NCBI GenBank assembly: GCA_030141605.1
Contig: JAQGDQ010000082.1
Coordinates: 546,501 to 610,500, forward strand
DNA: 64,000 nt
Source: Tubiluchus corallicola
Taxonomy: Eukaryota; Priapulida; Priapulimorpha; Priapulimorphida; Tubiluchidae
Reading direction: 5' to 3'
The position numbers and the translations under genes were made by a program. Of the stretch, positions 20,851 through 47,586 are shown in pieces. Positions within the stretch are counted from its first letter, which is position 1, and the number at the start of each line of letters is the position of its first letter. Under the pieces are notes generated by a model. That model made no database searches. It was not told the origin of the DNA and saw only the letters and a program-made list of their open reading frames with translations.

Positions 20851-23800
20851 GTGATATATTATACATATATTTTAATCATGAATTTTAAACGAAAAATTTT
20901 AAGTTTTACTGAAAATAAACGAATATTGTGTAAAGAATGTACAAACTCAAGACAGATGTCTCCAGTGCCAATCTCTGGTACACTGAAACGTGTATGCACG
21001 TCTTGCTGCGTAATAATATCACAAAATTGGATCGAAAATAACTCGTGCGTAAATTTTTGCTATTCTGCTTCTATTTTACAGTTTTCATATGTGAGAAAGT
21101 GCACACTTTCAGATACTAGAGATTTATATTACAAGTTTCAGTACTCCCCTACTTTATTAAACTGGATTAAAAATAATTGTAACCATGATTATTTTCTAAC
21201 AGTATTAAAAATGTTGCTTATAATTGGTTGTACTGAAACTAATCCAGGTCCCTTAAACCAAACCCCCACGCAAAACCACATTGACCTAGAGCTGGCAGAT
21301 TTTATGCAAAAACATAAAAAGAATTTGAAATTTCTAGGTATCAATATACAAAGTCTGACAAAAAACATGCATTGCTTAAAGACACAGTTCGTTCATCTGA
21401 AAATTTAGTCGTTGGAATAACCGAAACTTGGCTACACAAGCAAATACCTAGTGCCTCCATACAACTGCCTCATCATACACTCATACGTCGAGACCGTCCC
21501 ACACATAAACGTGGGGGAGGGGTTGCAATATACATCCCAAAACACATGACATTTAACGAAGCCAAAGGAATTAAAACTAACAAAATAGAATCAATTTGGT
21601 GTAATATTGAAAACTACATTGTAGGTGTCATTTATAAGCCACCAAATCAAAAATATAAAGCTTTTCTAAAACATTTTGAAATTGAACTCGAACGTGCTGT
21701 GCTTGAAAATCAACCAGTTTTATTAATGGGGGATTTTAATATCGATATTAGTTCAACAAATACTGCTCAGTGCAAAAAGTATAAAGAAGTCTTGGACCAA
21801 TATAACACACAAATACTAAACGTAAGTAATAAACCCACAAGAATCACTAAAACATCATCTACTACCATAGACCACTTTATCTCAAACGCTAAAGACAATT
21901 TCCAAGTACAAGAAAACTTCTCGTGTGATTATTCTGATCATGATTTTATAATAATAGTAGACAAAAAAGAACCAACCAAAAACAATACAGGCACAGTCTG
22001 GAAATTATTTCAAGATACTTTAACCAAATTGGACTGGAGTAATATTTACACAATGACTGACATTGACATACAAATAAACACATTAATAAATAATATGGAA
22101 TACTGCCTGGATATCTATGCACCGTATAAAAAAGTTAAAATACATCAGCAGCAATCTAATGCAAAATCTGCTTGCCCTTGGACGGATACAGAACTCGCAA
22201 GACTAAGACACAATAAAAATGAATTATATAGAACATATTTACATTTAAAAGGTAAAAGCAATTACGATAATTACAAAAAGGCACGAAATAAATTTAATAA
22301 CTACAACAGGAAACTCAAAAATAAATATTATATTAATAAATGCAATGATGCAACTACACCTAAGCAAAAATGGCGATTAATTAATGACGTACTTAACAGA
22401 TACAGAAACGATCAATTACAAATAAACAGCTTACGAGAAAATGACAGTATGATATCTGATCCAGTTGACATTGCTAACAAATTAAATTCCACATTTATCA
22501 ATCTCGGAAAATTTGACAACTTGCCACGCCAACATAAGGCAAATATACACAATAAATACAAAAACCTATCAGTAACACAATCCACTTTCTCATTTACCAG
22601 CGTCACCGAATACGACATCTTTAGAATATTAAACAGTTTAAATATAAATAAAGGAAGTGGACCCTCAGACATGCCAATAAAAATCTTAAAAGGCTGTGCC
22701 AGCATCATTACTCCTCATCTAACATATATCACAAACCAAGTCTTAATGCGCTCAGAATTTCCAGCAGTGTGTAAACAAGCAAACATAACTCCAATACACA
22801 AGAAAGATGCTAACGATGACGCTAAAAACTACAGACCAATTTCAGTAGTGCATGTACTAGCCAAAGTATTTGAAAGAGTTATCTACAACCAAATAAATCA
22901 TTACATTGAAAATAATAAGTTACTGTCAAATCATCAATTCGGTTTTAGAAAACTACATTCTACAATAGACGCAATAATTGATGCCACTGAAAAGTGGCGT
23001 TACAACTTAAATAAAAACAAATATATAAACAGCAGCATTTTTAGATCTAAGTAAAGCTTTTGACAGCCTCGATCACAATTTACTACTAGACAACTTACGC
23101 CAACTAGGATTCGATTATACTTCTCTCAAACTAATTAATAATTACCTACACAATAGAAAACAAGGAGTCAAGCTGAACAAACACACTTTTTCAACATGGG
23201 ACACACCACAGAGAGGCATCCCGCAAGGTACGATATTAGGTCCTTTACTCTTTTGTTTATATGTTAATAAAATTCATTTAGTTTTACATAATTCAGACTT
23301 AACACAATATGCCGATGATACAACTATCTATACAGCACACGCAGACTTTCTAACATCAAAAAATAATCTAGAAGAAGACATAACAAATATAAATGCAGCA
23401 TTTAACTATTTTGGTTTAAAAATGAATGATGATAAGACAGAATTTATGGTAATATCACCCAAATCACATGACATTACTTCTTCTAATGCAACACTAAAAG
23501 TAGGTGACTGTTCCATAGAACAAGTAAAAAATGTAACATTTTTAGGCATTTGTCGATAATAAACTCACTTGGGATGAACAGTTTCAACAAATACACAACA
23601 AGATGGCATTAAGCACGGCATTCTTACGCCAAACCAGAGGCCATCTGACCAAGAAAACAAAAATTCTCATCTACAAAAGTCTAATATTACCACATTATCT
23701 GTATGGTTGCACTTTACTTCAAAACGTTAGGAATGAAAACTTTAGAAAACTAAATACAATGCAAAACTACGCACTTAGATTAATTCATGGCTATTCTAAT

Positions 23801-24139
23801 AAAACTGCTAAACAACATGCTGCATCTGCAACAAGCTTAAGAACGTCCACAAAAATACCAATATTAGAAGCCTATCGAGATTACAAAACACTGATATTTC
23901 TTTATAAATATATCAACAAACTGAGCATCCCATTTATAAACAATCCCTTAGCATTCATTCCTGATACCACTTTAAACAATAGAACACACAATTTAAAGCA
24001 AATTACAGTAAACAATAAATTTGGAACTAACTCCATATCAAAACAGGCCATACATTTATGGAACTTACTACGCAGTGAAATAAAACTAATAGAATCTCTC
24101 CACCACTTTAAAAAGAAATTTAAAAGAATATCAATATAA
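20851..24139 (+). pseudogene. LINE endonuclease/reverse transcriptase, frameshifted
   Basis: This is the polyprotein of the LINE above, in four overlapping frame segments: 20851-21408, 21372-23054, about 23038-23560 and about 23555-24139. The endonuclease part shows GITETWL, GGGVAIYIP, LMGDFNID and a YSDHDFI ending, all standard for APE-type LINE endonucleases. The reverse transcriptase shows NYRPISVV, QFGFRKLHST, DLSKAFD, GIPQGT and QYADDTT. The C-terminal part ends WNLLRSEIKL...FKKKFK. Each segment stays open apart from single-base frame slips, so decay is recent or mild. The slips could also be assembly errors in an AT-rich, A-run-rich copy. Confidence 0.85.
21211..21252 (+). other. 2A-like motif in LINE leader
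   Basis: The codons read MLLIIGCTETNPGP, immediately upstream of the endonuclease. The core ExNPGP of co-translational 2A 'skipping' peptides is intact, with a hydrophobic run before it. The usual DV/DI before the glutamate is CT here. 2A-like sequences at this position are known in LINEs of sea urchins, molluscs and other invertebrates. Activity of this variant is unknown. Confidence 0.65.
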
Positions 24140-24590: not shown

Positions 24591-24979
24591 CGCCCAGAGC
24601 GAGAATGGTTTAATCAAAATCCCACATACTGTTTGCTCCCGACGTGCGGGTTATAGCAGTTTTCTGCCAGGAATTTGAAAATCTATTAATCTTAATCTAA
24701 GTTAGCTTGTTATGTGTATCCAGAATATGCCTCCTCATATTTTATATATTTATTCTACGTCTTCTTGTTATTTTTAGAGAAGGCCATAATTACTGTGTAC
24801 TTCAATTTAAACCACCCACCACAGCTTACAGGAAACAGCAAGCAGCAAGAGCAAGTAAGACTATTGCCGGGAAGTATACATGGAATCGTGGAAACAACTT
24901 GCAAAGCTGCTGCAAAACAAAATATTTCAAGTTTAGTTAATTAATTATTAAAAATTTCTGACTTCAGATGTGCCATACA
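24586..24979. other. 5' region of methyltransferase copy A
   Basis: This lies between the LINE tail and the EGF-methyltransferase start. The last 30 bases or so match the corresponding region of the second copy. A good splice acceptor (tttctgacttcag) ends at 24967, so a 5' non-coding exon may exist upstream. The second copy lacks that AG. Nothing else is recognisable. Confidence 0.4.
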
Positions 24980-26011
24980 ATGTGGAAGAAAGGTGCATTA
25001 ACTGTATTGGTAATTGGTTTAACACTGTTCTTTTGTGTTACCATATTTCATCCCCGACAACTAATAAGAATGAGTGGTCAAGACAGGTCACTTTCTTCTT
25101 GGGAAAATGATAGCTCCATCAATGACTTAAACAAATTCAAGTGCGCAGATCATGGTAGCTGGTATTTTGACTACTGTTTTTGCCACCCAGGATATGTAGG
25201 AAAAGATTGTTGTGAGAGATTACTTTTTGACAGGGAAACCACGAAAGCATGTCCAAACCTTGCACAGAAAATAACGTATGGCAAATTCATGAAGGCTGAA
25301 AACATCTCGGCGACTTGCTTTTCCCAGCGAGAAAGTGGCGTCGTACAAGTGCCACAGTTTCTTTGGAAAAAGGCACAAACCAATGAGCTAAAAATATGGT
25401 CACACACAAGAGGGAAAGGTGACAGATTTGCTGAGCATTACGAAGGCTTCAATCAATATCGCAAAGTCCCAGTTCAGCTGGGAAACTTGGTTGAAATTGG
25501 TGCTGGTCCATTTACTCAAACGTTATACCTCATGAAAGCAAGACATGATGTTAATATTTCGCATGTGACACTAGTTGAGCCTATGGCTGACATTTACATG
25601 AAGACAGTTCCAAGGTGCACTTATAAGTCTGGAAGTTTATGGGGATATCCAACAACTATTGTTTCTTCTCCTGGTGAAGTTTATATGCAAACGAATGCGT
25701 TTGACACTGTAGTGAGCATTAATGTTATAGAACACGTGCAGGATGCATTGGAATTTCTGCACAACATCTACACTTGCCTAAAATACAATGGCACGCTAAT
25801 TTGGCATGAAAGGTGGAATCCTGTGCCTAAACATGGTCAGAAATATGATCAACTGCATCCTATTCAAATATCTCGTTTAGTAGTTGAGAAATTTTTAATG
25901 GGTTTTGAGCCACTGTATGTGAGTACAAATCCTACTTCAGCTGCTGTTAAACGAGCAAACAATCAAACAGGTATATATTTTATAGGGCTTAAAAAATCTA
26001 GTTTTAGCTGA
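24980..26011 (+). CDS. Membrane-anchored EGF-like/SAM methyltransferase, copy A
   Basis: An intronless frame of 343 aa starts at MWKKGAL, the start conserved with the paralogue at 37061. An in-frame ATG four codons upstream is not conserved. Residues about 6-24 form one hydrophobic segment after a short basic N-terminus, a type II signal anchor. Residues about 55-78 form an EGF-like module (CADHGSWYFDYCFCHPGY then GKDCCERL). From about residue 150 the protein is a class I Rossmann methyltransferase. Motif I is NLVEIGAGPFTQ (about 169-180), the ribose-binding acidic strand is TLVEP, and DTVVSINVIEHVQDALEFL resembles the Methyltransf_11 post-motif region. Several N-glycosylation sequons (for example NIS, NGT) agree with a luminal or extracellular domain. 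Substrate and pathway are unknown. AATAAA follows at 26047. Confidence 0.85.
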   Translation: MWKKGALTVLVIGLTLFFCVTIFHPRQLIRMSGQDRSLSSWENDSSINDLNKFKCADHGSWYFDYCFCHPGYVGKDCCERLLFDRETTKACPNLAQKITYGKFMKAENISATCFSQRESGVVQVPQFLWKKAQTNELKIWSHTRGKGDRFAEHYEGFNQYRKVPVQLGNLVEIGAGPFTQTLYLMKARHDVNISHVTLVEPMADIYMKTVPRCTYKSGSLWGYPTTIVSSPGEVYMQTNAFDTVVSINVIEHVQDALEFLHNIYTCLKYNGTLIWHERWNPVPKHGQKYDQLHPIQISRLVVEKFLMGFEPLYVSTNPTSAAVKRANNQTGIYFIGLKKSSFS

Positions 26012-26218
26012 CATTGTTTAGAATGAATAACTTTTCGATACTGTTTAATAAAAGTTTATAATAAACAGATTTTGCGCAATGCACTAACGGCACTGTTGCT
26101 TCTGTTTCTTATTCCACCACTTTCTTTTTTTGCAAAAATTATTACCTCTCACTTTCTTATTCTTTCGAACCCTTTCAAAAATTTTATAGTGTGTGAGAGA
26201 AGTCTGAATTGTGTCAAA
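26012..26218 (+). repeat. 3' flank shared with methyltransferase copy B
   Basis: The 3' UTR and about 150 bases beyond align with 38084-38290 after copy B, including the words ttgcaaaaat, tctcactttcttattct and agtctgaatt. Similarity stops abruptly at about 26216, where the repeat block starts. The duplication that produced the two genes therefore included the 3' flank. Confidence 0.7.
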
Positions 26219-27600
26219 TGGCGCGCGGTAAAAAATGGCACAGGAAAAAAATGACGCAAATGGAAAAGCACGTAAAAATGCCACAGGAAAAATGACACAT
26301 ATGTTATTTTCATGCAGTTGATTTCTATAACAAAACTAGAATGCACTCAGTAGGAAGCAGATCTCTGCTGAAGCCAATCAATCCTAAACTTATTCGTCTG
26401 ATTCTTCTGGTTAAAAAAATAACACAAAGATAAATAAATAAACATACAAAAATGTACCTGTAGACTAGCAAAAGACTCACAAAACATTTGTTCAATAAAG
26501 TATTTATAATCAATAATGTCCGATGGTTCCACATAGTGTTTATCTACCTTTTCGTCCAATAATTTTGGAGATGGTAATAGACTGACAAATGTATACGTAT
26601 TTACATACCAAGTCATCTTGTTACACATTAAAAAGCAACGTTACACAGTTTTACAAGCGAGAATCTCTCGCGGCGATAGCAAAAAAAGAAGCACTAAACA
26701 CTCACTCTGAGGCCTTCATAAAGTGTTTCATGAATGTTTTTTTTACGTCGTGTTCGGTCAAGTTTGCGAAAAAAGAACTGGCGAAAAGATTCTCACTTTG
26801 GCCCCAATACTCACCTTTCTTTACAAAGTTTCTTGGAAATTTGTTAGGTAGTTTTTGCGTTATATGCTTATTGCCTTACACAAAAAAAAACAATCAAACA
26901 AACAAGCAAACTGTGTTGAAGCGTAACTTCCCTGGCAGAGGTAAAAATCGATAAGATAATACCACCCCCCCCCCACCCCCCACTGTAGCCCTAAGCCTAA
27001 ACACGTATTTTATTAAGCGTGTCATTTTTTCCTCTGCCATTTTAGCTACTTTTCCATTCGTGCCATTTTTCTTTTGACATTTTTCCTTGCCATTTTTTCC
27101 AGTGCCATTTTTCCTTTGCCATTTTTACCTACATTCCCACATTCAGGCAATACACATTTATAAACAATTTGTGTAAGTGATGTTCGGTCAAGTTTTGCGA
27201 AAAAAACTGGCGAAAAGATTCCCATTTTGGCAACCCATATCCGCCTTTCTTCACAAAGTTTCTGGGAAATCTGTTAGATAGTGTTTGCGTATTAGTCATA
27301 ACAGACAAAAAACAACCAAACAAACAGACAAACCAACAAACAAACTGTGATAAAGCATACCTTCCCTGGCAGAAGTAAAAATAACTAAAATAATTATCCA
27401 CCCCCCACTGTAACACTAACCACAAACACATTTTACTAAGCATGCCATTTCTGCCTACTCCATTTGTATCATTTTTTCCTGTGCCATTTTACCGTGCAAT
27501 TTTTCCTGTGCCATTTTTACGTGTGCAGTTTTTACCTGCTTTTCTATTTGTGTCATTTTCCCTGTGCCATTTTTACTGTGTCATTTTTTCTTACATTCAT
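26219..27600. repeat. Composite repeat with inverted TGCCATTTTTCC arrays
   Basis: Degenerate 12-16-base units around TGCCATTTTTCC form an array at 27021-27132 and another at 27441-27595. They appear in reverse orientation (GGCACAGGAAAAA) at 26219-26298. Between them a unit of about 430 bp is tandemly duplicated, from about 26748 and from about 27178. Both copies share 'gttcggtcaag', 'actggcgaaaagattc', 'acaaagtttct' and a C-run. Open frames here, such as minus 27129-27443, are low-complexity and I do not call them genes. The whole may be a non-autonomous transposon with subterminal repeats. Confidence 0.6.
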
Positions 27601-28665
27601 CGAGTACAGTAGACAGTTAGAATGTGCCGTATTTTTCGCTTAACTCATGTTCATATTTTCCCACTCGTAACGACTCATTTCAGCGTTAGATTGGAATTAA
27701 TTTGCATTGCATCATCGCCATATAATTTAATGATTTTCAAAGGATTTAAAATAAAGTTTAATAAACAATCTAGAATGAAAACATCCTGAGCCTTATGTTG
27801 GAGCCTAAATTTCCCCAATAAATTAAGCTCCTTCACAAGATTTTTTACAAATTCTTTTATGGCAGGACCGGATCTTCGTTTATTTTTAAAATAATCCTCT
27901 GAGATTAAATACAGAATAGGCAGAGGTCACCACCAAATGCATGTATAATTTGCATCCTCTATTATGGTTATTCTAGGAAAAATGGGAAGTAAATTTTTCT
28001 GGCAAAGAAGTCTGCGAAGTTTTTGTCGGGGAAAAAATTTTCTGGCAAAAAACTTTTCTGTTAAGCGAGTCTACCCCGTCATCACCCAGCAGTACTGGCA
28101 ACTAGCCCACACAGCCGATCCGTAATAATTTTCCCTGCAAATGCATTTCCATTTTAACGTAAGCAGTTAAATTTGCGATAATCTGGCCTACTAATTATGA
28201 TTTAATAGCAAAGCAAGGGATAGCTGTCTGAATTCATCACGTCAGTAAATTAACAAGATAAACTACTTAGAAATCACGCAACACACAAACCTTATAATAC
28301 GCAAAGTTTCAGTGTATTTGCATAGTACTAAATCTTAGGAAATTCCTTAACAGATTATTGTGAAACGTGGTTTTCACCAACACTTTCAATAATAAAAGTT
28401 TCAAACCTCTTTGTGCTTCTGCTTAGATAAAGTTAATAATGATCAAGATAAGAAAGTCTTATTTTGAGTTGCTGTCAATTTTGAAACCATCTTCACTATG
28501 GCTTAACTGAACCTCAATTTCACAGGCATGATTTACACTGGCTCCTGGATTATGTCCTTGGCAACTCGGTAGGTCCAGAGCGGCACAGCGATAGGCACTC
28601 TGCACTCGAAACACTCCCCAGGCTTCACTGCAACTGTCACTCAAACGGCTTTGAAAACGTCTTGA
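27601..28665. other. No supported gene; GC-richer right end
   Basis: The left part is AT-rich with two T-rich blocks at 27960-28080 that resemble a decayed inverted-repeat element. From about 28460 base composition rises. A 61-codon minus frame at 28644-28459 (cysteine-rich, starts MSDSCSEAWGVFRVQ) stands head-to-head with the plus frame at 28666. I do not recognise it and treat it as uncertain. Confidence 0.35.
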
Positions 28666-28887
28666 ATGGCAACTTACGGTCTCGTTGCAATCACAATTGC
28701 ATCTACGTTTACAGTTGGCAGTTTGTTCTATGGGTTAACAAAAAGGGAGGCAAAAAATGAGAACACAATTAGTTCGGGAATAAGGAACAAACAGTTTCGA
28801 GTGATAGCCACGGAGAAGGCGAGGTGGTCGAGAAAACAAATCATCATCCAGCAGTGCACTTTCAGTGACGCGCACATTGCTTTCTAG
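28666..28887 (+). CDS. Small predicted membrane protein, unidentified
   Basis: The 73-aa frame begins MATYGLVAITIASTFTVGS and continues LFYGLTKREAKN, so residues about 4-24 could be one membrane segment followed by a basic, polar tail (TEKARWSRK). It sits in a GC- and CpG-richer patch (28460-29080) that could equally be a promoter region. The peptide looks like a small mitochondrial or ER membrane protein, but I recognise no family. No intron or poly(A) signal can be fixed. It may be chance. Confidence 0.3.
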   Translation: MATYGLVAITIASTFTVGSLFYGLTKREAKNENTISSGIRNKQFRVIATEKARWSRKQIIIQQCTFSDAHIAF

Positions 28888-29926
28888 TGCGGATTAACAT
28901 TAAAATCAAAAGTATAATCCGGAAAGATCCGATCACGTTTTTCTCATCCGCATCCGACCCGCATTTTTCTTTACTATGCGATACTAAATCCGGTCCCCAG
29001 GAACGTCACTCGTTGTTTTCAAGTCCCGGGACAGTAATTCCCTTCGAGCTACGCATGGCTATTTCAATTATGTCATGATAGGTGAGGTTCGTGAGTCCTT
29101 CAAGCGCTTAGTGAGGCTCTTGAAGATTCGCTTACCTTTGCGTTTAGCTCTTTGATTATCGCATCATTAACTGTATTTTCTTCTTAGATTCACAGTTTCT
29201 TCATATTAGTGTTTGTATACTGGTGACACAGGAAGTTTTTCTTTTCTATCCAGATTTTTAAGCCAATACTTATTACTTTCTTTAAGTATGCCAGGCTTTC
29301 CACATCAAGTTCTGTGGCTAGTGCTACTGATGAAATAGTTTTTTTAGTATATTAATGCAAAGTATAATGGTTCCATTAAGGATTTGGTACACACATGTGT
29401 AAGGTATAATAATCGCATTATCGTTAAAGAGTGAGTTTTAAAAGTTCTGTTACTGTTTTGAAAACTTATCAAAATGCAAAACCTGAAAAAATGCAACACA
29501 AGTTTGTAATTTTAATTTCTGCATGTATTTGAAGCAGAATTATTTCAATTTCTGAATGTTTTAACATCACCAATACTACAGATGCACATATCATATACAG
29601 AAAAAATAAAAACTAAGTAGCACAAGACAGTCTTAAAAACGTCTAAATTAACTTTTTGGAGACTAGTGACATAGCAGTTATAGAGCTATTACACTATTAC
29701 TTCAAGTGATTGCACTATACTATTACTATTAATTCAGTAAAATTCTCTAAATAAAGTAAAAAATATAACAAAATTGATAATGACACTTCATGAACACTAC
29801 ACATATTTTACATAACACATGAATGCCAAAAAAGACTATGAATTGAAAATATTTAAGACATACAAGATTTTGGTTGCTGTGGTACACAGTACTCCTAGTG
29901 TTTGGGTTTACCAGAAGTCAGGTAAA
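28888..29926. other. No supported gene
   Basis: The first 200 bases keep the raised CpG content of the preceding patch. The rest is AT-rich with no exon I can recognise. Confidence 0.4.
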
Positions 29927-30218
29927 TCAAGCAGCATAATTATGCTTAGACATTATGCAACATTTCTTGTTAACGTAATCATCTTCTAAAACAACAGCAT
30001 TCCTTCCTAATAACGTCTGCAAAATGCTTATTTTTTCTTCAAGCTCAGATTTGGTTACGGATGTTGATGGTTGTCTTTGTTTTCGTTTTTTTGTTGAGGA
30101 AAACCAACATAGCTGTTTGTCTGCTTTACTAGGAGCAGCTTTGTTGCTGTTGGCTATAGGAGCATGTGGCTTCCTCTGCATAGCTTTTACTAGGGCAGCA
30201 ATTCCTCGCAGCTTTTCT
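29927..30218 (-). CDS. Terminal exon candidate, unidentified
   Basis: On the minus strand the frame opens just after a TAA at 30221-30223, next to possible AG acceptors (30220-30217), and runs about 96 codons to TGA at 29927. The product is basic and then helical (LRGIAALVKAMQRKPH, TKKRKQRQPS, ELEEKISILQTLLGRN), with a possible nuclear signal KKRKQR and a short leucine-rich helix. This composition is more gene-like than the surroundings. Upstream, a LINE begins at about 30345, so earlier exons are missing or displaced. I do not recognise the family. It could be a transposon fragment. Confidence 0.35.
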
Positions 30219-30344
30219 CTTTAATTTGTTGAAATATAGCACGATCATTAGTCTCTTCCAACATACTTCACAATATAACATATTCCTAATATCTACATGT
30301 TTGTCTTCATCATGCCCGCTGTTTCTTGCTGTTCTTCCTTGCAC

Positions 30345-32092
30345 AGAGTTATAAGTTTATAAGTTTTATAAGTTTATTTATTTCCACTCTGCATCTAACA
30401 ATTATAATAAAAATACAGATAATTTCACTGAAGTAAATGTAAATATAAATTCAGTATTATCCAGATTTTACAAAATGCAGCATATACATGTGCAAATTAC
30501 ATTACAGAATAATTTTGATGCATATAGTTTGAGCCTAAAAGCATAGCTTGACAGGCCAAACTGTACGTGGAAATCTTAAAAAAATGATTAATAATTGAAA
30601 TAATGAAATAATGATAATATATACATAAAAGTGGGGGGGAGTAGTGAATGACAGATGAAATGGAGCAAGAACTAAGAAAAACTGTGATCATGATTATAAA
30701 GTGTTCAGTAACCTGTTGAGCATAGTCACGTTATATTAAGATTACTGTGGAAAAAGAATGCAGGTTATTACCATTATCAAATTGTGTTACTCTTAATACT
30801 TTTGAAATATTTCTTTTCTGACGGTTTTTTTAAAAGTTGAAAGGGAGTGACTACATTTTGAATTGCAGCTTAGTCTATTCCATAGGACTGGTCCCATATA
30901 GCTAATGAAATGTTTCGCCATATTTGTCCTACAACGTCTTGGTATATATTCATTATGTCTGGTATTGTATTTTTTTACATTTATCTTGACTGGATTTTCA
31001 AAAAAAGTTGGAAATAAGTTGTTGTTGGTTCTATACATGTATATACATCCATTAAAATTAATAACATCATCCAGAAGTAATATTTGACATTGCTTAAAAT
31101 GTGTAGTAGTAATTGTGCTCCTTTTGTCTAGTTTGAAGATTTAGTGTCTAGTTAAAAATTTTTGTTGTAAAACTCTTAAGCATTCTAAATTTGTAGTATA
31201 AGTAAAGCCCCATAATGTTGTGCAGTAATTTAAATATGATAATATTAAACTGTTGTATAATGTTAGAAGATGTTCGGTGTTCAGAAAGTTTTTAATATAT
31301 GAGATAATACCTATATTTTTTGATATTTTCAATCTGATCATGAATATATGTGGTCGCCAGTCTAGATGCTCATTCAGGATTAATCCCAGAAATTTCAGTT
31401 CTTTAACACGTGTAATTCTTTTATGGTCTATTATTAAATCGTGGTTCGCCTGAATTGGTTTATTTCGGGATCTAAACAGAATGTATTTTGTTTTTGATGA
31501 ATTTAGTGAAAGTTAAATGTTTTGAACCATATAGCTAGATCATGTAGAACTGTATTTATGTAGCCAATATTGATTTCTATTTTATGAAAGCTAAAAAAAT
31601 GCTTGTATCATCAGCAAACAGAAATAACTGTGATTTTTAACACAAAATTTGATGTCATTAATATAAATTAGAAAAAGTAGTGGCCCAAGGACTGAGCCTT
31701 GGGGCACGCCACATTTGATTGGTGCTACATCTGAAAAAGCGTTATTATATTTTACTGTCTGAGTGTGCCCTGTTAAATAATTCTTTAGCCACATATGAGG
31801 CAAACCTCTGATACCGTAACAGTACAACTTATTTAGCAGAATGTCATGGTTTACTGTATCAAATGCTTTTGATAGGTCACAAAATACTCCGTAGGATGTG
31901 CCATTTTTTTCAACAGTATTAATGATATTTTCTATAATTTTTGTTAAGGCTATTTCGGTGGAGCTACCTTTTCTGAAACCAAATTGTTTATTACTCAGTA
32001 TTCTTTTTTTTATTAAATAATGATTGTAAAAAACTTTTTCTAATATTTTTGATATAAAAGGTAATAAGGACACTGGTCTATAATTGTTCAGC
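30345..32092 (-). mobile_element. CR1/Jockey-type LINE, 3' part (outer, interrupted)
   Basis: Minus-strand reverse transcriptase: NNYRPVSLLPFISKILEKVF, QFGFRKGSSTEIAL, VFCDLSKAFDTVNHDILL and GVPQGSVLGPLLFLIYIND at 32092-31591. Decayed C-terminal pieces follow at 31341-31141 and 31038-30793 (GPVLWNRLSC). A 3' UTR ends in an imperfect (ACTTATAA)n tail at about 30350-30376. The protein upstream of NNYRPV is found at 35147-35415, so this copy was split by a later insertion. Several frame breaks make it inactive. Confidence 0.85.
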
Positions 32093-35000
32093 TCGTGTAC
32101 ACCTAGCTCGTACACTGTGTACAGATGTTAATATGATGGGTTCTAAGTTCCCTGATCATTCACTTATAGAAATGACAATTGTACCTAATTATTCTACGGA
32201 GGAGTATAATGACAATAATGATGCACATTCTGTAGGTGATGATGATTTGTATGACAATGTGCCAGTTGATGATAAATATTACAGAAGATATTGTATGACT
32301 GATATTTCTGACCAAATGTTCTCATCTGACATGTCTAAACAAGCATTGGCTAATTGTATCCAAAACATACAATCTTTTAGAGATGGTCAAACTGAAATTG
32401 ATAATCTTTATAGTGAATTTTGTCAATTGTACTACAGTGAAATGGACGAATGGTTGAGATATAGAGATGTGAATCCCAAAGCCAAGAAAAGGCTTAGGCA
32501 CTCAATAAAACCATTTTGGACAGAGGAACTTACAGATTTATGGAAAAGTTTATGTGATGCTGAGAAACAGTATTTATCCCTTCCTCAGCACAGTAGTGGA
32601 CGAAAACAGGCTAGGAAGGTATTTATAGACTGTCAACACAAATTTGATCAGATTTATAAAAAGGAAAAAAGGAATTATCAAAGGCAAAAAATTTGTGACA
32701 TTGAACAATTAAATGTTGATGATCCCAAGTCCTTTTGGCAAGAGATCAAAAAACTTGGTCCACAAAGTAAGCAAGAGATACCAATGGCTGTATATAATGA
32801 AGATGGGTCCATTAATGTAAATCATGAAGATGTACTGAATAAATGGAAGCATGAATTTAGTACACTTTTCAGTGGACCTACTGAGTGTGGCACCTTCAAT
32901 GATGAATTTTATATAAATGCAATGCAACAGAAAGCAAATTTGGAGTCTCAACTTGATTACTTAAATTCCAACATGTTTTTGAATAGGGATATCACACAGG
33001 AGGATGTAGAGAAAGTTGTGAGGAGGGCCAAAAATAAGAAAGCAGTTGGGTATGACAATCTCCCTAATGAGATTTTAAAGCTAAATCAGTCTATTAGTGT
33101 GCTCTCTGTTTTATTTAATAAGATATTTAACACTGGAGTTATCCCCTCAGTATGGAAATATGCCATTATAAAACCCATACCCAAAGGTTCTCTTATAGAT
33201 CCCAAATTGCCTATGCAATATAGGGGAATTTCTTTGCTCTCCACAGTGTATAAATTGTATACTGGTGTCATTAATGTGAGATTAGCTGCATACATGGAGG
33301 AGAATGGTATTTACTGCGATGAACAAAATGGCTTTAGGTCGAAAAGATCTTGCACTGATCATATTTATGTGTTAACATCTATACTGAGAAACAGAATGAG
33401 TATGAATAAGAGCACATATGCTTGTTTCATCGATGCTGAAAAAGCATTTGATCGTGTAGATCGTGATCTCCTGTTGTATAAGTTGTTATGTCACAATGTG
33501 GATGGTAAAATGTATAGCAGCATTAAGAATATTCTTTCAGATACCTATAGTGCTGTGAATCTAAATGGTATCCTCACTGATAAATTTAAATGTGAATATG
33601 GTGTCAGGCAGGGAGACACTTTGTCACCAACCCTGTTCAGCTTGTATATAAATGATATGGCAGATGATGTAAAGTCCCTAAATATTGGTATTCCTGTTGG
33701 TAATGATAAGATTTGTATTTTAATGTATGCTGATGACGTTGTAATTTTAGCAGAATCTGAAGAAGATCTTCAGAAAATGTTAGATAAGATCACTGAGTGG
33801 GGAAAGAAATGGAGAATCAAATTTAACAGTAAAAAGTCAAATGTTGTCCATTTCAGAAAACCCCAAGTGAATCAAACTGATGTACTATTTAAACTTAGTG
33901 ATCAGATTTTGAGCACTGTAGATAGGTATAAGTATCTGTGGATTTATCTTAATGAACATTTAGATTATAAGGTTACAGCACAAGTACTGGCAGACTCAGG
34001 CAGTAGAGCTCTGGGTGCCTTGATTGGTAAATATAAAAGTTAAATGGGCTGGGTTATTATTCCTTTACTAAGTTATTCAATGCAGGTGTATGTCCTATAC
34101 TTGATTATGGTTCAGAAGTATGGGGATATAACAAGTACCCTAAAATTGATACTGTCCAGAATAAGGCATTAAGAATATTTCTTGGTGTTCATAATTTTGC
34201 TGCTAATCAATGTATACAGGGTGATATGGGATGGTCACCATCTTCAGTTAGAAGAAAGTCATCTATGATAAGGTATTGGAATCGTCTTTTAACACTTGAT
34301 AATTCTAGACTTGTTAAGAGAATATTTCTTTGGGACCGTAATACCAACGTTGGTTGGTCATATGAAATTTCTAAAGTCCTAGAGGAAGCAGGGTTCCAGC
34401 AAGCTTTTGTTAATATGGATACTGTACCTCTTAGCAGAGCATGGGCACAGCTGTATGAGAAACAATGTGTTGATTGGAAAGCAAAAAATGCAGATTACCC
34501 TAAACTTAGAACATATATATTGTATAAGAACAGCTTTGGAGTAGAACCATATGTTTATATTAATATGCAAGGAAAATACAGGTCTGTGCTTGCAAAGCTA
34601 AGAAGTGGTACTCTTCCCCTGGAACTGGAGCATGGTAGGTTTAGAAATGTTAAGGTTGGTGAACGTTTGTGTAAGATATGTTGCTGTGGAGATGTAGAAG
34701 ATGAATCTCACTTTATGTTTGTTTGTACACATTATAGACTAGAGAGAGAAGAATTTTTCCAAGATATTAACATGGACCCGGAACAATTAGATAATGTAAA
34801 TAAATGGAAATATATTATGTCAGAAGAGAATGTCCTTAGGACTGCAAAATATGCTTATATGATTTTTAGAATGAGGCAAAGCAAGATATATATTTAATAC
34901 ATGACTTGTCCATTCAGGTATATGTTAAAATTCCATATTATATATTTTTTATTTATTTGATATTCTATGTAAATGAACTGCACAGTTACTATGTGATAAA

Positions 35001-35138
35001 TTTTCATGAAATTGACTTGTAAGCCCAAGTGGGCTGGAAACAGCTTTAATAACATTTTACAGTATTAATTAACACATGAATTATTACATTGTTATTATCA
35101 TATGTTTATGTCAATAAAGATATTCAATCAATCAATCA
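32093..35138 (+). mobile_element. Second LINE inserted into the first, nearly intact RT
   Basis: A 3046-bp insertion is flanked by the 8-bp direct repeat TGTTCAGC at 32085-32092 and 35139-35146. It is 5'-truncated inside the endonuclease (FPDHSLIEMTI). A long frame runs from 32133 to 34043 with reverse transcriptase motifs CFIDAEKAFDRVDRDLLLYK, GVRQGDTLSPTLFSLYIND and MYADDVVI. One frame slip near 34040 separates the C-terminal part ending at 34897, which has a CKICCCGDVEDESHFMFVC zinc-knuckle-like cluster. The tail is (TCAA)n at 35123-35138. The GVRQGD motif places it in a different clade from the host LINE. Confidence 0.92.
32133..34897 (+). pseudogene. Reverse transcriptase of the inner LINE
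   Basis: The coding part of the inner LINE is almost continuous. It comprises 636 codons to 34043, then a single frame slip (restart around 34045), then the remaining C-terminal region to 34897. The order is endonuclease tail, linker (KPFWTEELTDLWKSL), fingers/palm RT with FIDAEKAFD, VRQGD and YADD, thumb, and the C-terminal Cys/His region. The loss of the endonuclease and one frameshift make it non-functional, yet few other lesions exist, so the insertion is young relative to its host. Confidence 0.88.
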
Positions 35139-35146
35139 TGTTCAGC

Positions 35147-35415
35147 GACATGGGATCATCTGATTTAAACAAAGGAACAATAATTGATTCTTTCAATTTC
35201 ACTGGTATTTCACCTGTAAGAAAAGATAAATTAAATAAATATTGCAAAGGTTTAGAGATGTAATCGATGGTGTCTGTTAATACCACTCAAGACACGTGAT
35301 TGCTCTGTATAGTAGCTTACTTTTATTCCTTTAAAAAGTTAATATTAGTTATTAGTAATCTGAATGTCGCCTACAATAGATGAGTCATTTACAAATTCAT
35401 TTAGTTCTCATATAA
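35147..35415 (-). mobile_element. Outer LINE, 5' part beyond the insertion
   Basis: On the minus strand this reads ISKPLQYLFNLSFLTGEIPV then KESIIVPLFKSDDPMSLN, which continues directly into NNYRPVS at 32092 once the inner LINE is removed. Further upstream the frame is broken by several stops (NEFVNDSSIVGDIQITNN is still legible). The copy is 5'-truncated near 35415, next to a TAAA-rich run. Confidence 0.85.
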
Positions 35416-35745
35416 ATAAATAAATAAATTTTTACATTGCACGTTCATCCGAACGATAGGCAGCAGCACTACAAACTTTTCTGATAAGCTGAAGGCATCT
35501 ACAGTTTCAATTATGCAAAATATAATCAAAACTAGGTGATCGAGCAAAAATTCACAGTTTAAAAATGAGTCCTGCATCTTACTTTACCCGAACAATGTTT
35601 CTAAGTGAAATTTGCAAAACTTTGTTTTCTATTTGCCTGAAAAATTGTTAGTTAGTTTACAGCTATAATTTCTTACCATTTTTAGTAATCCTGACTGTTA
35701 GTCTTGCACAGCATTTAAATCCTTGCCTCCCTGAGCCTTGCACTT
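35416..35745. other. No supported gene
   Basis: AT-rich sequence beginning with a (TAAA)n run at about 35412-35430. It would be 3' UTR if the minus-strand candidate at 35746-36362 is transcribed. Nothing else is recognisable. Confidence 0.4.
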
Positions 35746-36362
35746 TCATCTGCCGCTTGCCTTTGCTTCATCCTCTCCTGTCCACTCCACCTCTGTGACA
35801 CTGATAATACTCGAATTTTGCATTTTTGGTTTGATGTTGGCCAGAATCCTTCACATATCGATAATTTTGTCTTCTTCTTTATCATGCTTCCACTGATGAA
35901 AACCTGTAAATGAGTAAATAAGTTTATAATTATAGTTACGTTTTACTTTTTTAAATTCAAATTAGCAATCAAAAATACTAAATACAAACATTTACTTCCA
36001 AAAGCATAATTTTATGTTGACACCTGACACGTCTGTATCTAACTACTAGTTAACTTATTAATTAACCAGATGTCCAGTGTAAATGAGCTAAATTAATTTA
36101 AAAAGTTCATTACATAATAGTGTGTAGTTACACTTACGAGTACAATAAACTAGTTACACAACTGAGTAAAGTGAAGCTTACCATCTTCAGACAAAAAGTA
36201 CAATAGCATCATTTCTTCGTCGACATTAGATAAGCCTTTACAGGAGCCTCTTTTCAGGAGTTGTTGAAGATCTTTCCTTGAATGTTTAGCATCACAAAAC
36301 TCACAAGAGAACACAATTTTGCAGGGCCATCTTCGTCTTGAAAATGGATTGCAAGACTTGCA
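35746..36362 (-). pseudogene. Two-exon zinc-ribbon-like fragment with in-frame TGA
   Basis: The minus exon 36362-36182 is open for 60 codons between a good acceptor (catttcag) and donor (gtaagc). It begins CKSCNPF and contains CEFCDAKH, a CxxC...CxxC arrangement like a zinc ribbon, and ends MMLLYFLSED. The next exon starts at 35903 in matching phase (FHQWKHDKEEDKIIDM) and meets TGA at 35853-35851. Thirty-four further in-frame codons look equally protein-like (NIKPKMQNSSIISVTEVEW) before the next TGA at 35746. A second frame of this exon is also open for about 60 codons. I do not recognise the protein. It may be a real C-terminus, a pseudogene, or a recoded stop. Confidence 0.4.
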
Positions 36363-37060
36363 CTGAAATGAGACTATGATTAATAATAAATGTATTTACG
36401 TATACATATGAATATGCACAAGTAAGCATACAAACAAACAAGGCAGGGCAGATGCACACAAGCGTCAATTTTAAAAATGACTATTCAAAATCAAATTTCA
36501 AAGTCAAAAGTAGCTTTTACAAAATTAAAAGATCTTTTTAAGCAATATAAAAAGCTCGCAGTGAAATCACGTACGGGTTCATCTAGCAAAAAAATGATTT
36601 TCCTGGCCTTTTTATCCAGAAAATGCTTGTAAAAGAGTCACTAAAGAGTGGGTAATAACCAGTCAGGTATCATCATTACCACTGGTAGCATCAGCATGCA
36701 CAACATGGCTTTAATGTTTGACTTATTTGTGTAATATTCACACTGCTGAACGACGCTAGACTGCTAAATGTTGTTTGGCCAACTAACACCTTGTTGAACG
36801 ACGCTAGAACGGCTTTTCGTAAAGTCATTAACTCACGGTTGTATATTGCCACCTACCAACAAAAATTGATTAACTTGCCTTGCGTCTTACGTCTACGAAC
36901 GAACCGACACGTGATTTTGCATAGAAACAGTAGTTAATTATCAAAACAAATATACTCGTCCTCTGTCAGCTATGTAAATAAGAGATAACGGGCATATCCG
37001 TGCTCAGACGTTAATCTGTTAATTAATCATTAAAATTTTCTGATCTTGACGTGCCGTACA
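36363..37060. other. 5' region of methyltransferase copy B
   Basis: No exon is certain. A minus-strand frame near 36640-36500 (begins HFLDKKARKIIFLLDE) could be an upstream exon of the preceding candidate. The words gaacgacgctaga occur twice (36747, 36795). The last 30 bases or so before 37061 match the same region of copy A. Confidence 0.35.
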
Positions 37061-38083
37061 ATGTGGAAAAAAGGTGCATTAACTGCGTTTGTAATTATTT
37101 TAATACTATTCTTTTATGTTAGCATATTTTATCCTCAACAACTAGGAAGGAGGAGTAGTCAGGACAAGCTCCAACTGACTGATAGTTCCACCAAGGACTT
37201 GAACAAATGCAAGTGTGCAGATCATGGTAGCTGGTACTTTGACTATTGTTTTTGCCACCCTGGATATGCTGGAAAAGATTGCTGTGAAAGACTATTTTTT
37301 GACATGAAAAGCATGAAAGTATGTCCAAACCTTGCCCAGAAAACAACGTATGACAAATTCATGGAGGTGGAAAATATTTCGGCGACTTGTTTCTCCCATC
37401 ATGAAAATGGCATCGTGCAAGTGCCACAGTTTCTTTGGAAAAAGGCACAAACTAGTGAGCTAAAAATATGGTCACGCTCAGGAAAGCAAGGTGACAGATT
37501 TGCTGAGCATTATGAAGGCTTCAATTGGTATCGCAAGGTCCCAGTTCAGCTGGGAAACTTGGTTGAAATTGGTGCTGGTCCATTTACTCAAACATTGTAT
37601 CTGATGAAAGCCAGACATGATGTTAACATTTCACATGTGACACTAGTTGAGCCTATGGCTAACAAATACATGAAAACTGTCCGAAGGTGCACTTATAAGT
37701 CTGGAAGTTTACAGGGTTATCCAACAACTATTGTTTCGTCTCCTGGTGAAGTCTATAAGCAAATGAATGCATTTGACACTGTAGTGAGCATTAATGTTGT
37801 AGAACATGTGCAGGATGCATTGGAATTTTTGCACAACATCTACACATGCTTAAAATACAATGGCACACTAATTTGGCATGAAAGGTGGAATCCTGTGCCT
37901 AAACATGGTCAAAAATATGATCAAATACATCCTATACGAATATCTCGTTTAGTAGTTGATAAATTTTTAATGGGTTTTGAACCACTGTATGCGAATACAA
38001 AACCTACTTCAGCTGCTGTTAAACGAAAAAAGAATCAGACAAGCATATACTTTGTTGGCCTTAAAAAATTTAATTTCCGCTGA
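37061..38083 (+). CDS. Membrane-anchored EGF-like/SAM methyltransferase, copy B
   Basis: An intronless 340-aa paralogue of the gene at 24980, collinear over its whole length. It has MWKKGALTAF, a hydrophobic anchor (about residues 6-24), and the EGF-like module CADHGSWYFDYCFCHPGY then GKDCCERL. The methyltransferase motif NLVEIGAGPFTQTLYLMKAR, TLVEP and DTVVSINVVEHVQDALEFL follow. Differences cluster in the linker after the anchor and in the short 140-150 segment, while the methyltransferase core is nearly unchanged. That suggests selection on function in both copies. Same orientation as copy A, 12 kb away, with mobile elements between. The frame has no stop or frameshift. Function beyond methyl transfer is unknown. 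Confidence 0.85.
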   Translation: MWKKGALTAFVIILILFFYVSIFYPQQLGRRSSQDKLQLTDSSTKDLNKCKCADHGSWYFDYCFCHPGYAGKDCCERLFFDMKSMKVCPNLAQKTTYDKFMEVENISATCFSHHENGIVQVPQFLWKKAQTSELKIWSRSGKQGDRFAEHYEGFNWYRKVPVQLGNLVEIGAGPFTQTLYLMKARHDVNISHVTLVEPMANKYMKTVRRCTYKSGSLQGYPTTIVSSPGEVYKQMNAFDTVVSINVVEHVQDALEFLHNIYTCLKYNGTLIWHERWNPVPKHGQKYDQIHPIRISRLVVDKFLMGFEPLYANTKPTSAAVKRKKNQTSIYFVGLKKFNFR

Positions 38084-38617
38084 GGTTGTTTACAAGGAAT
38101 AACTTTTCATAACTGTTTAATTTATGTTTATAATAAATTGGTTTTCTGCAATAATACTGTTGCATTTTTTTCTTACTCCACCATTTTGTAATTTTTGCAA
38201 AAATGATTTCTTCTCACTTTCTTATTCTCTCACACATTTTCAAAGGTTTTACCAACATAGTGCATGAGTTAAGTCTGAATTCTGTCATTTTCTTGATTTA
38301 TTATTTTCCTTCATTCACTGTTAATTTTCATTTTTTTCTGTTACCCTGGAACTTCTGTTTCTGAAAAATATTATCACAAATGCATTAGCATTTTATCCTC
38401 GTTCATTTAATTATTCAGTTTTCCCTATGTTTGTCTATCCCTAACATCCACATGAAACTTTAACAAAATTTTAGTGATTTGATTCAATTTTGCGCAGCAA
38501 TCCAATGGATTTAAAGATGGAACCGTGGCCACCGTTTGAGAGGAAAAATATAGACTGCACCTAACATCAAGCTTGAGCGTGAGAAAGGCATTCTGTCGGT
38601 ATAGAAAATCTATAATA
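38084..38617. other. 3' flank of copy B
   Basis: The first 200 bases are homologous to the flank of copy A. An AATAAA-like word occurs near 38132 (ataataaatt). After about 38290 the sequence is unrelated to copy A and holds nothing I recognise up to the LINE tail. Confidence 0.5.
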
Positions 38618-43259: not shown

Positions 43260-46200
43260 TCAACTGTATAGCCAGTAAATGTCTGGTATATCAGGCTGTC
43301 TTTTTAACCTTAGGAGTTCTGACACTTCCTTTATGTAACCTCTTGTAACATTTTTTATGCTCTCCGAAAATGGGTCAAATGTTGCATCTTGTGTAATGTC
43401 ATTTGATTTTCGCTTGAACGATCCTTGGCTGTTTTCCAGAGTGCAGTTAAATCGCTCGGCAGACACATCCAAATTCAAAAACTTTATTACTCGACGAAGC
43501 TGCACAGCTAAGTTTGTTTTCATGTCTTCATAGTGAACAACGAGAAGATTCCTGACAACTTTCAAAAACGTTGTATTGATCTCATACCAAAATCTTGTTT
43601 GTTCATTTGCAAATCTCCCAAAAACTGCAAAATAAAGTACAGAATTGAGCTGTACACCAAAACTTTTATTCATGTTTTTACCATTGCTAATGGTCTACAT
43701 GGCAGTGTCAACAGATCTGCTTTGACCAGTGTCAACAGTGCCTACATGGCAGTGTCAACAGATCTGCTTAGCATGTAAGTCATTTTGATGATCAAAAATT
43801 GACATGATAGTTGCCTGCACTTTTTAGAGTGAGAAGACACATTGCTTTAAGGCTTAACCTGATACCACAACTTTGATTAGGAATGTAGGCCTATTTGGAG
43901 ATTTTTTCTTTCTTACAAAAATACATTTATATGACACCATTTTGAGTATTTGGTTGTGTTTTTGCTTGAAATCTTAGAAGCCCTATTTTTTTAAATTAAA
44001 ATATTAAAACCCAATTAAAAAACATTTCAGGATGAGGGCCTGGTTCACCACCTTCATGACTTTTTAGCAATAACAATTCATGCAGTAACTTGATTAGTGA
44101 AAAACACATTCAGTGAACAAATTCAGTCCATACTGTACTCTCAATGATGAAGGTTATGTGATGTACTTAGTTTCTAAAGGCTACCCCCTTAACTGAAGAA
44201 GTACCTTTTTATGCGAGGTGTCTTTCTTATAATCAAGTGACGATATCAAAATCATGTGTTCTCTGCATCCAATCCAGTTATGCAAGCTTTCCCATGGATA
44301 AAGCCAAGCAGTGTCAGCATTTTATATTTTCCTTCTGTTATAAACAGCGTCTACACATGCTACTTACTTTCTTTCTTGAAATCCTCTCTTGACAGTGTTT
44401 GGGTATGAGAATTTCCTTTCAGGCTGCCATCTTTACCACGGAATCTCCGCTGGAAATCTGCAACTGTGGCTCTAAATGGATTGCGTATGAGCAGTATGGC
44501 ACCGCCATGTTTGTTGTAAATATGGGCATCCTGGCTGAGATGTGACTTAATTAAAATCACTATACCCTGCTCAATACTCTTCATTTCGCCCAAAAAACCT
44601 GCATAAAGAATGATGTTGAACTGTATATAGGCAAGATAGATGGGGTACAAAAGTTTCTGGTTAGATTTACCACAATTTCTGCCTCAATTTTGTATTATTT
44701 AAGTAATTATAGTTTAACAGTTTTTCTGCTGGGCTCACAGACATATTATATGATCTAATATAGATAAAATGTAGTAAAATGTCATGGATGCCATCTTCTT
44801 TTCTGAAGACTGAAGAACGTGGCAAGCCTGGCTTCAGAATAGGACACTTGGTAATCTCAGTAATAGACAGTTGCAAACTGTTGCTACACAAAATTAATAA
44901 GGTTATCCAACCCAGTGTAAAGTTAAAGTTTGATACTAATGTATTCAGGTGTGTTTTCCATCAACTTTGATTAGTTTGATATGGGTGGTGTTTACCAGTG
45001 AAATCAGCAAATATACACTAACAAGATTACAAGATTTTGTTCACACAGAATATAATGTGGTAGGCATATGGTAGACCCTTTGCTTCAAAAAGATCAATAA
45101 TTCATTTTCAGGTCCTGCATCACAAACTCCTAATTTATAGCGTGCTAACATCTTGATTATATACATGTTAAATGCAAGTACGATGAGCAAAACCTTTCTG
45201 GTATAGGTTGCTGTCATGGTATTCGCTTCCCGTGAAGACTCCGCTCAAAAGTTCGACTAAGTGGCGCATCCATGTGTTCCCCGATCCAGGCAAACTAGCT
45301 AATCCCTGCTTCTTGTATGTATGTAGAGGTGCTAGCTCGATTATCCCACATCTTTGGTCTGTCAATCGCACAATATCCATTTTAAAATTTTACGAAAAAA
45401 ATGAGTTTTTTATCATATAAATGCATAATAGCAACATCTGAAAAATTTTGCAACTCTACTAGGACTCGATCCCCAGACCACCTGCTTCCAGGTAGCTGCA
45501 TTGACTATTACTGCATAACTTTTCTGCATAACTCAGTAAAAGACTCAGACTCAGTAGTGACTAAGAATACCACTTAAATCGGATTAGTATTGATTGTTGA
45601 CTAAAATTTAATTTTTCCATTTCGTGTCCTATTGAAGACTGATTTGTTGAACAAATATTGTCTGTGACAGTTTAGATGCTAATGCATAACTGTCAATAAT
45701 AACTGTAATGCTAGCTTTGTAAGTAACTTAAACATTAGCTTTCGAAAAATGCAAAATGTACATCTTTCAAATGTTCTTTTCGGTGTGTGACTATTGGATA
45801 AGAACATACCCTCAACTCTTCTGATAACCTTCTTGTGATGGTTGATGAGGTATAAAGGCATTCGATTTCTGGCACAGGCATTTGGCATTTTTCCACGTCG
45901 CCATATTACTCCTCTGGAATTCAATTTTCCACAGTAGCAAGTGCGGCTGTTTGAGTCAATCACAACATTTTTCCATGATGTTTGAACTCTACCAAATAAT
46001 ATTAGCTAATATAGTACCTGTGAAATATTAACTGGCTCTTAGTTTTCTAATTATTGATCTACATTTTATATAAGAATTTGTAAAGTTACATTGCTAATTC
46101 AAGTTCATGGTACTACGACCATTTAGCTACTGCAGCCACGAAGTGAGGGATCCTTAAAGGTTGATCATATTGTTGTTGTTTTTGTGGTTATTGTTGCTGT

Positions 46201-47586
46201 AGGTGTTGTTGCTGTTGGTGTTCTTTTTTCACATTTATCTTTGAATGCTATCATCGATACAGTTACAGTTTCATCGTGGAAAACTGAAATTTTGCATGAA
46301 AATACTGCGGACCATTGTGCCTGAATTTTCGTTTTCCTAATACGGCCCTCAGATATGTTGGTTAAATGGATCACACCCATTAAATGGTTCTGCCCTATAT
46401 GTTGTTACATTGTTGCGCATATTCTAAATTTTTACGAAAAAATAGACCATGACAACAGTAAAACATTTTCCATGATTTTCTTATGGAAATCATTAACTTT
46501 CCAAAAAATGAGCAATAGGACATGCCACATCCAAGAACATTGGTGCTCCTGTTTTAGTTGATTTTTTATTTTGTACTATGCAGCAATTACAACCATCCAT
46601 TGAAACTTCCTGTTGAAATACATTATGTTATTTATGTACAATACTCTAGCTTACATTGTTATATTTACCACAGAAATCGTGTGAATCTTTCAAGGATTTA
46701 GCTGCACTTTTTACATTTACTGTAATGTATCTGCTGTCTTTCAAGGTGGGCTAGCATCTTATATATTTTTCTCAATGTGATTTAAACTGCTGTTTTCTCA
46801 AACTCTAATCGAATCAGAATCAAGTGATTAGAAGGCGAATGTTATGGTTATTTTCAATATTTTGAAATATTTTTGGATATTTTTACCTTTTAAAGTCTTT
46901 GCATCTTGAAATACACTCATCGTGAAAACTATCAACACCGATTCCAATGTCTATTGTGAAAAGGCCATTTCTTGAATTAATGTGTGACAGTGACATGCAG
47001 TTTACAAAAGTAACTAGAAAGAAATACATCAAATTCAAACAAAAGTTCATGTAATGTGGATACACCACTAATTTCAAAATAGTCGGAACATTTGTTTACT
47101 TTAAAATGATTTGCTAAAATTTTTATGAAATCTAGCATAATGAATCCGTATATTCTAAATACGTGTAACAAATCGCAACATTTGTTGATGTAATTAAAAC
47201 TACTTAGATGCAAAATCATTTTTTAAGAGAAATGAGAAAGTATGCATAGGTTGAAACATTACTTCTTGCAGGAGAAATTAAAGAAAAACCGTGATAAAAT
47301 ATAAATTTATTTTCGTCTTACCATCTTTCATGCTTTTAACTCGAGATGCCTTCTCAGCAATCGAAGAACGTTGCTGACTGGATGTGTGTGACTTAGTAAT
47401 AGTCGTATCGCTAAACTCCTCATTATTGTAACTCTGAGAGTGCTTACTCAGTGCCATTGACAGTAAGCATACATTGATAAGCAAAACTACTATGAAAATT
47501 ACTATCCATATTTTTCTCACACGTAATAACATTATAGAAGTGCTGCTTTTCATACATGGCCGGCTTATTGATCTTAGTAGCTTCAT
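43260..47586 (-). CDS. WSC-domain sulfotransferase (WSCD-like)
   Basis: This is a probable Golgi type II sulfotransferase of the WSCD family; vertebrate WSCD1/2 are reported to sulfate sialic acids. Six exons join in phase: 47586-47322, 47013-46887, 45988-45810, 45358-45194, 44598-44368 and 43624-43260, giving 443 aa. A signal anchor spans about 27-46 (IWIVIFIVVLLINVCLLSMA). A single divergent WSC domain (about 90-180) includes CMSLSHINSRNGLF, DECISRC and TCYCGKL. The PAPS 5'-phosphosulfate loop is LASLPGSGNTW (about 211-221). The 3'-phosphate region is AILLIRNPFRA (about 279-289), and NLLVVHYEDMKTNL plus FKRKSND close the fold. Vertebrate WSCDs have about 570 aa and two WSC domains, so this one is shorter. 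The ATG is followed by a basic stretch, as usual for type II proteins. Confidence 0.88.
45455..45520 (-). other. tRNA-like sequence, possible SINE/tRNA relic
   Basis: On the minus strand the sequence contains GGATCGAGTCC, close to the Pol III B box (GGTTCGANTCC), preceded by a weak A-box-like TAGTCAATGCAG. An arm-like ACCTG..CAGGT hairpin lies between them. The anticodon loop does not fold canonically, so this is at best a tRNA-derived relic within WSCD intron 3. Confidence 0.3.

Follow-up and report, generated by a model that had tools for sequence, protein, structure and literature searches.

Predicted membrane-anchored proteins combining an EGF-like module with a class I methyltransferase core form a twelve-copy family in the priapulid Tubiluchus corallicola

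Some animal methyltransferases sit in membranes: TMT1A and TMT1B (METTL7) have an N-terminal membrane segment and a core of the Methyltransf_11 type. Methyltransferases that use S-adenosylmethionine (SAM) and face the lumen of the secretory pathway are, to our knowledge, rare among described animal enzymes. Here, we analysed a stretch of 64,000 nucleotides from the priapulid Tubiluchus corallicola (assembly GCA_030141605.1, contig JAQGDQ010000082.1, positions 546,501 to 610,500 of the forward strand), hereafter the window, which carries two genes for proteins with a predicted N-terminal membrane anchor, an epidermal growth factor (EGF)-like module and a class I methyltransferase core. TMT1A and TMT1B differ from them in having neither an EGF-like module nor a cysteine-rich linker, and act on thiol substrates. 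The Pfam families Methyltransf_11 and Methyltransf_23 (PF08241, PF13489) are alike in the core, where the window proteins have an above-cut-off match, the Rossmann fold, the G-loop and the post-motifs. Yet, these profiles span the core only, and the anchor, the EGF-like module and a linker rich in invariant residues lie outside them.

A preliminary description of this DNA had put forward two intronless paralogues with this architecture, citing four motifs. A reading-frame scan gives two uninterrupted frames on the + strand, with no stop and no intron, and both proteins contain the four motifs (CADHGSWYFDYCFCHPGY, VEIGAGPFTQ, VEP and EHVQDALEFL). The architecture held when tested more widely, since all twelve genomic copies keep it. 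The "pair" stands in so far as the window holds two tandem genes, but these are really two of twelve intact copies. Aligned starts place the common start at the Met of MWKKGALT. Gene 1 alone carries a further in-frame ATG, at 24968, 12 bases upstream of this Met. The linker of gene 1 (residues 84-164) contains the residues CPNL, CF, Q-x-P, W, AQ..E...W and EGF, invariant across the family, and an AATAAA follows soon after the stop in both genes. The features are as follows.

24936-26216, + strand: duplicated unit, copy 1 (85% identical to 37018-38287)
24980-26011, + strand: gene 1 coding sequence, single-exon open frame, 343 amino acids from the shared Met
24992-25048, + strand: gene 1 putative N-terminal hydrophobic signal anchor, P0001 residues 9-27 (Kyte-Doolittle; helix in the full-length model)
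25136-25216, + strand: gene 1 EGF-like module, P0001 residues 57-83 (signature, sub-threshold Pfam match, model, substitution rates)
25217-25459, + strand: gene 1 linker, residues 84-164 (family-invariant residues)
25460-25822, + strand: gene 1 class I SAM methyltransferase core, residues 165-285 (Pfam, AlphaFold, structure matches)
25823-26008, + strand: gene 1 C-terminal methyltransferase part, HPI.IS and final strands (alignment, model)
26047-26065, + strand: gene 1 poly(A) signals, two AATAAA (read directly)
37018-38287, + strand: duplicated unit, copy 2 (DNA alignment)
37061-38083, + strand: gene 2 coding sequence, open frame, 340 amino acids from the shared Met
37073-37129, + strand: gene 2 putative N-terminal hydrophobic signal anchor (window score 2.60)
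37208-37288, + strand: gene 2 EGF-like module, P0002 residues 55-81 (sub-threshold Pfam match, signature)
37289-37531, + strand: gene 2 linker (family-invariant residues)
37532-37894, + strand: gene 2 class I SAM methyltransferase core, P0002 residues 163-283 (Methyltransf_23, E 4.2e-7, above cut-off)

Protein 1 has 12 matches in the assembly (343.5 Mb in 2,344 contigs), with E-values from 4.5e-248 to 1.7e-84. All 12 are single-exon open frames of 339 to 401 residues without internal stop. None has lost the anchor, the EGF-like module, the linker or the methyltransferase, and their identity to gene 1 ranges between 41% and 82%. A search started from the most divergent copy recovered these 12 again and, beyond them, nothing but noise at E 0.27 or worse, with no intermediate or remote members in the genome; hence the family is a clear island. 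The copies are spread over 11 contigs. In two close pairs, C19/C1850 and C910/C870, the flanks also align, in collinear pieces across ~10 kb at ~73-95% identity, and these may be alleles on separate contigs (haplotigs) or segmental duplicates, so that the true number of loci is 10 to 12. EGF matches on contigs C1787 and C2264 lie at coordinates 14 bases apart, an offset from which we think that the assembly probably retains both haplotypes in some regions. A search for COX1 turned up no mitochondrial contig. In one paralogue (L011, contig C2043) a ~40 bp tandem repeat (cagcgaaaccagagctggatggtagactagagagtgctttt) adjoins and enters the 5' end of the frame. Synonymous sites are saturated between copies except inside close groups, which makes the family old and the window pair, with a synonymous divergence (dS) of 0.35, younger. 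Because the family is old, orthologues in other animals are to be expected, and these are likely uncharacterised.

The methyltransferase assignment is the firmest part of the architecture. Methyltransf_11 scores 31.6 and 30.1 bits in the window proteins (Pfam cut-off 21.2) and Methyltransf_23 scores 29.8 and 30.3 bits (cut-off 27), while 12/12 copies match methyltransferase families in Pfam. Three motifs are invariant throughout the family: the G-loop (E-x-[GA]-A-G-P), the acidic residue with which strand 2 ends (EP) and the N-x-x-E-H post-motif. The full-length AlphaFold model, with the anchor, has a predicted local distance difference test score (pLDDT) of 61 and leaves the EGF region unmodelled (pLDDT ~30). 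With the anchor removed (residues 57-347, built on an alignment with eight paralogues), the pLDDT is 77.7 and the predicted template modelling score (pTM) 0.82. Among the 1000 Protein Data Bank (PDB) chains ranked highest by Foldseek, 999 have Z of at least 8, and the listed rows are SAM enzymes or close fold relatives. The top structural match of the trimmed model, by VIA-align, is NodS (Z 16.6, root-mean-square deviation 2.8, 186 aligned residues), with NRMT2 at Z 16.4 and many further methyltransferases within a unit or two. The best matches are all class I methyltransferases, as the preliminary description had supposed of the core. We thus regard the class I Rossmann methyltransferase fold of the model as secure; the fold does not let one read the substrate.

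The EGF-like module is a more delicate matter. No Pfam EGF model exceeds its cut-off, the best being EGF_Teneurin (16.4 against 24.3 bits) and EGF_TEN (16.2 against 65), and only one or two of the 12 copies match an EGF model even weakly. All 12 copies do, however, carry a PROSITE-type EGF signature (C-x-C-x5-G-x2-C) with another cysteine directly after it, and the trimmed model places two beta hairpins at the module (model residues 7-10/13-16 and 21-22/27-28, pLDDT ~73-79). Eight cysteines (C59, C70, C72, C81, C82, C95, C117 and C217) are invariant in all copies, and a ninth, two residues before C59, is found in 11 of 12, gene 1 having Phe57 instead. In the canonical set of six EGF cysteines, the third position is not Cys in any of the 12 copies, and in gene 1 the first is missing as well. 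On sequence grounds the module is therefore best called EGF-like, and would not qualify as a canonical EGF domain. The closest profiles, those of teneurin-type EGF modules (PF23106, PF25024), have in common with it the tail C-x-C-x-P-G-[YW]-x-G-x-x-C; the window module differs in the missing canonical cysteine, in an extra adjacent one (CC) and in standing single rather than in an array.

Each window protein has one strong N-terminal hydrophobic segment, with a best 19-residue Kyte-Doolittle window of 2.45 in gene 1 (next best 0.83) and 2.60 in gene 2. The type II arrangement of the preliminary description is likely, but the flanking charges do not fix the orientation. The invariant cysteines, CC included, the EGF signature and the sequons present in every one of the 12 copies fit a lumenal or extracellular domain. 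In particular, the signature in 12/12 copies, with eight invariant cysteines and a ninth in 11, suits an oxidising lumen.

What might such proteins do? In layout, a class I methyltransferase that faces the lumen on a short stem resembles the glycan-modifying enzymes of the Golgi. We suggest that each protein would be held by its N-terminal anchor in a membrane of the secretory pathway, with the remainder, the EGF-like module and then the class I SAM methyltransferase, facing the lumen, where disulfides form. SAM would be delivered into the lumen by a transporter, and the enzyme, of Golgi type, would transfer methyl groups to hydroxyls of the glycans that glycoproteins or glycolipids carry. The EGF-like module would then serve either as a stem braced by disulfides or for docking. 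The module may guide the enzyme to its substrate, as had been proposed, and a structural, stem-like role is equally compatible. Lumenal orientation, catalysis, glycan O-methylation and the role of the module are all things that we infer. A Golgi-type lumenal glycan O-methyltransferase is to us the most likely role, a view held tentatively and at somewhat less than even chances, because of the Golgi-like layout and of what is known of glycan methylation elsewhere. Snail glycans are rich in 3-O- and 4-O-methyl hexose and nematode glycans carry 2-O-methyl fucose (PMC6272458). A 2023 paper describes the C. elegans methyltransferase that modifies fucose as unidentified (PMC7614267), and samt-1, a putative SAM transporter gene, affects glycan methylation in that literature (PMC7614267, PMC6422873). 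Viral class I enzymes O-methylate the sugars of N-glycans (PMC9614988). We also counted toward this role the Hox homeodomains of the genome, which by eye look lophotrochozoan, and a WSCD-like sulfotransferase (recognised by eye), presumed to be of Golgi glycan-modifying type, ~5 kb downstream.

Several observations weigh against this proposal. The EGF profiles stay below cut-off and other residues hold one canonical cysteine position. Charges are alike on both sides of the anchor, which leaves the orientation unfixed, and a cleavable signal peptide is also compatible. Two copies have the G-loop VEVAAGPR. The nearest structures include small-molecule, protein N-terminal and RNA methyltransferases with near-equal Z, and at the level of sequence we found nothing that ties the proteins to any characterised glycan methyltransferase. 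Finally, the record of methylated glycans drawn on here comes from snails and nematodes. One might go further and speculate that the family is a missing class, or part of one, of animal Golgi glycan O-methyltransferases, with the EGF-like module built in and some ten paralogues of differing acceptor specificities; this we find rather doubtful.

The structural matches bear on two other readings. The proteins could be lumenal or cell-surface methyltransferases of proteins or peptides, acting for example on carboxyl groups, lysines or N-termini of secreted proteins, in which case the EGF module would bind a partner protein. Contacts between proteins are a common task of EGF modules, and the protein N-terminal methyltransferases NRMT1/2 and NTMT1 rank near the top of the structural matches, level with NodS, at Z 15.5-16.4. 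Yet, sequence identity to these enzymes is only 13-15%, they are cytosolic or nuclear, and we saw no common substrate motif, so that we consider this reading unlikely. The Foldseek list, led by AS3MT and by plant and nematode phosphoethanolamine methyltransferases, together with weak profile matches to the same groups, speaks instead for a membrane-tethered enzyme acting on small molecules or lipids (of phosphoethanolamine, farnesyl, thiol or arsenic type) at the endoplasmic reticulum or Golgi. Such matches are at the level of the general fold (12-18% identity), and the known enzymes of those groups are cytosolic and without an EGF module; we give this possibility, too, only a minor chance.

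The pattern of selection returns us to the enzyme proper. Between the window genes, the ratio of nonsynonymous to synonymous substitution rates (dN/dS) is 0.27 over 340 codons. It is highest in the anchor and stem (0.48), the linker (residues 84-164; 0.45) and the C-terminal part (0.39), against 0.10 in the methyltransferase core (165-285) and 0.03 in the EGF-like module, where dS is estimated from few sites. By Fisher's test, synonymous changes are in significant excess over all codons (p 8e-12) as well as within the core (7e-9) and the EGF-like module (1.5e-5), and the other close pairs give the same purifying pattern overall. This bears out the earlier proposals of a near-invariant core next to a variable linker and of purifying selection between the copies, and adds that the EGF-like module is constrained at least as strongly as the core. 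The last point, with the altered G-loop of two copies, could be taken to mean that catalysis is partly lost and that the proteins have a structural or signalling role through the module. These two copies, L019 and L020 (contigs C910 and C870), are the most divergent pair, with the SAM loop VEVAAGPRTQ in place of VEIGAGPFTQ; they are still constrained and may have another specificity or reduced activity. A partial loss of catalysis with such a role seems very improbable for the family, since the SAM-binding motifs and core are intact in most copies, with the core at dN/dS 0.10, and a dead enzyme would have no need of the E, G and EH kept in 12/12.

The window genes are ~85% identical in DNA over ~1.28 kb and 82% identical in protein, and the similarity extends ~150 bp beyond the poly(A) signal, where no poly(A) tail is seen. 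This argues for a DNA-based duplication and rules out a retrogene origin of the window pair. From sequence comparison, we regard the two genes as a recent tandem duplicate inside an older invertebrate multigene family. That the copies are dispersed retrogenes or mobile-element cargo rather than an ordinary gene family, as 12/12 intronless copies on 11 contigs and the retrotransposon frames flanking both window genes might suggest, is highly improbable given that all 12 are intact and under constraint, that the window duplication passes the poly(A) signal and that two other close pairs align in collinear pieces over ~10 kb.

Other features were noted around the two genes. Frames of several retrotransposons of the long interspersed nuclear element (LINE) type, with endonuclease and reverse transcriptase, lie beside and between them, at 20851-24139 (+), 31591-32115 (-) and 32133-34897 (+). 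Sulfotransferase exons occupy 43260-47590 on the minus strand, ~5 kb downstream of gene 2, the last exon matching Sulfotransfer_1 (E 2.6e-7). By eye this gene resembles the WSCD1/2 type (45168-45389) and is possibly another Golgi glycan-modifying enzyme, its position being perhaps coincidence. An exon of the histone acetyltransferase HAT1 is found at 62480-63106, minus strand (HAT1_C, E 4.1e-27).

How do these proteins relate to systems described elsewhere? No prokaryotic relative emerged when the family alignment was run against 84,980 genomes (33 pattern matches), and no viral relative was found in viral contigs or, by tblastn, in phage records. A viral origin was also considered and set aside, the structure matches to viral proteins being general methyltransferases. 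No Pfam family spans the whole architecture, and the open-access literature gave no description of an EGF module combined with a methyltransferase. The combination of membrane anchor, EGF-like module and class I methyltransferase thus seems new only as far as Pfam and the open literature searched go, while the methyltransferase class itself is known. As a conserved, expanded and putatively lumenal anchored family, these proteins are concrete, cloneable candidates for the enzymes of glycan O-methylation in invertebrates, described as unidentified in 2023 (PMC7614267). O-methylation is widespread on invertebrate glycans, and the methylated glycans are targets of innate-defence lectins (summarised in PMC6272458). 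The top structural match of both models, NodS (Z 15.8 and 16.6), is an N-methyltransferase of lipochito-oligosaccharides and thus has a carbohydrate substrate. Yet, it is only 10-11% identical, bacterial and cytosolic, has neither anchor nor EGF module, methylates nitrogen and is tied with unrelated methyltransferases. The virus PBCV-1 offers a possible likeness in function. Its A064R domain 3 and A061L are sugar O-methyltransferases acting on an N-glycan, and A064R domain 3 is a class I enzyme that methylates hydroxyls of terminal sugars (PMC9614988). These enzymes are viral and not linked to EGF modules, and we liken them to the window proteins by function, not by homology. By this analogy, the proteins of Tubiluchus may work much as A064R domain 3 and A061L do.

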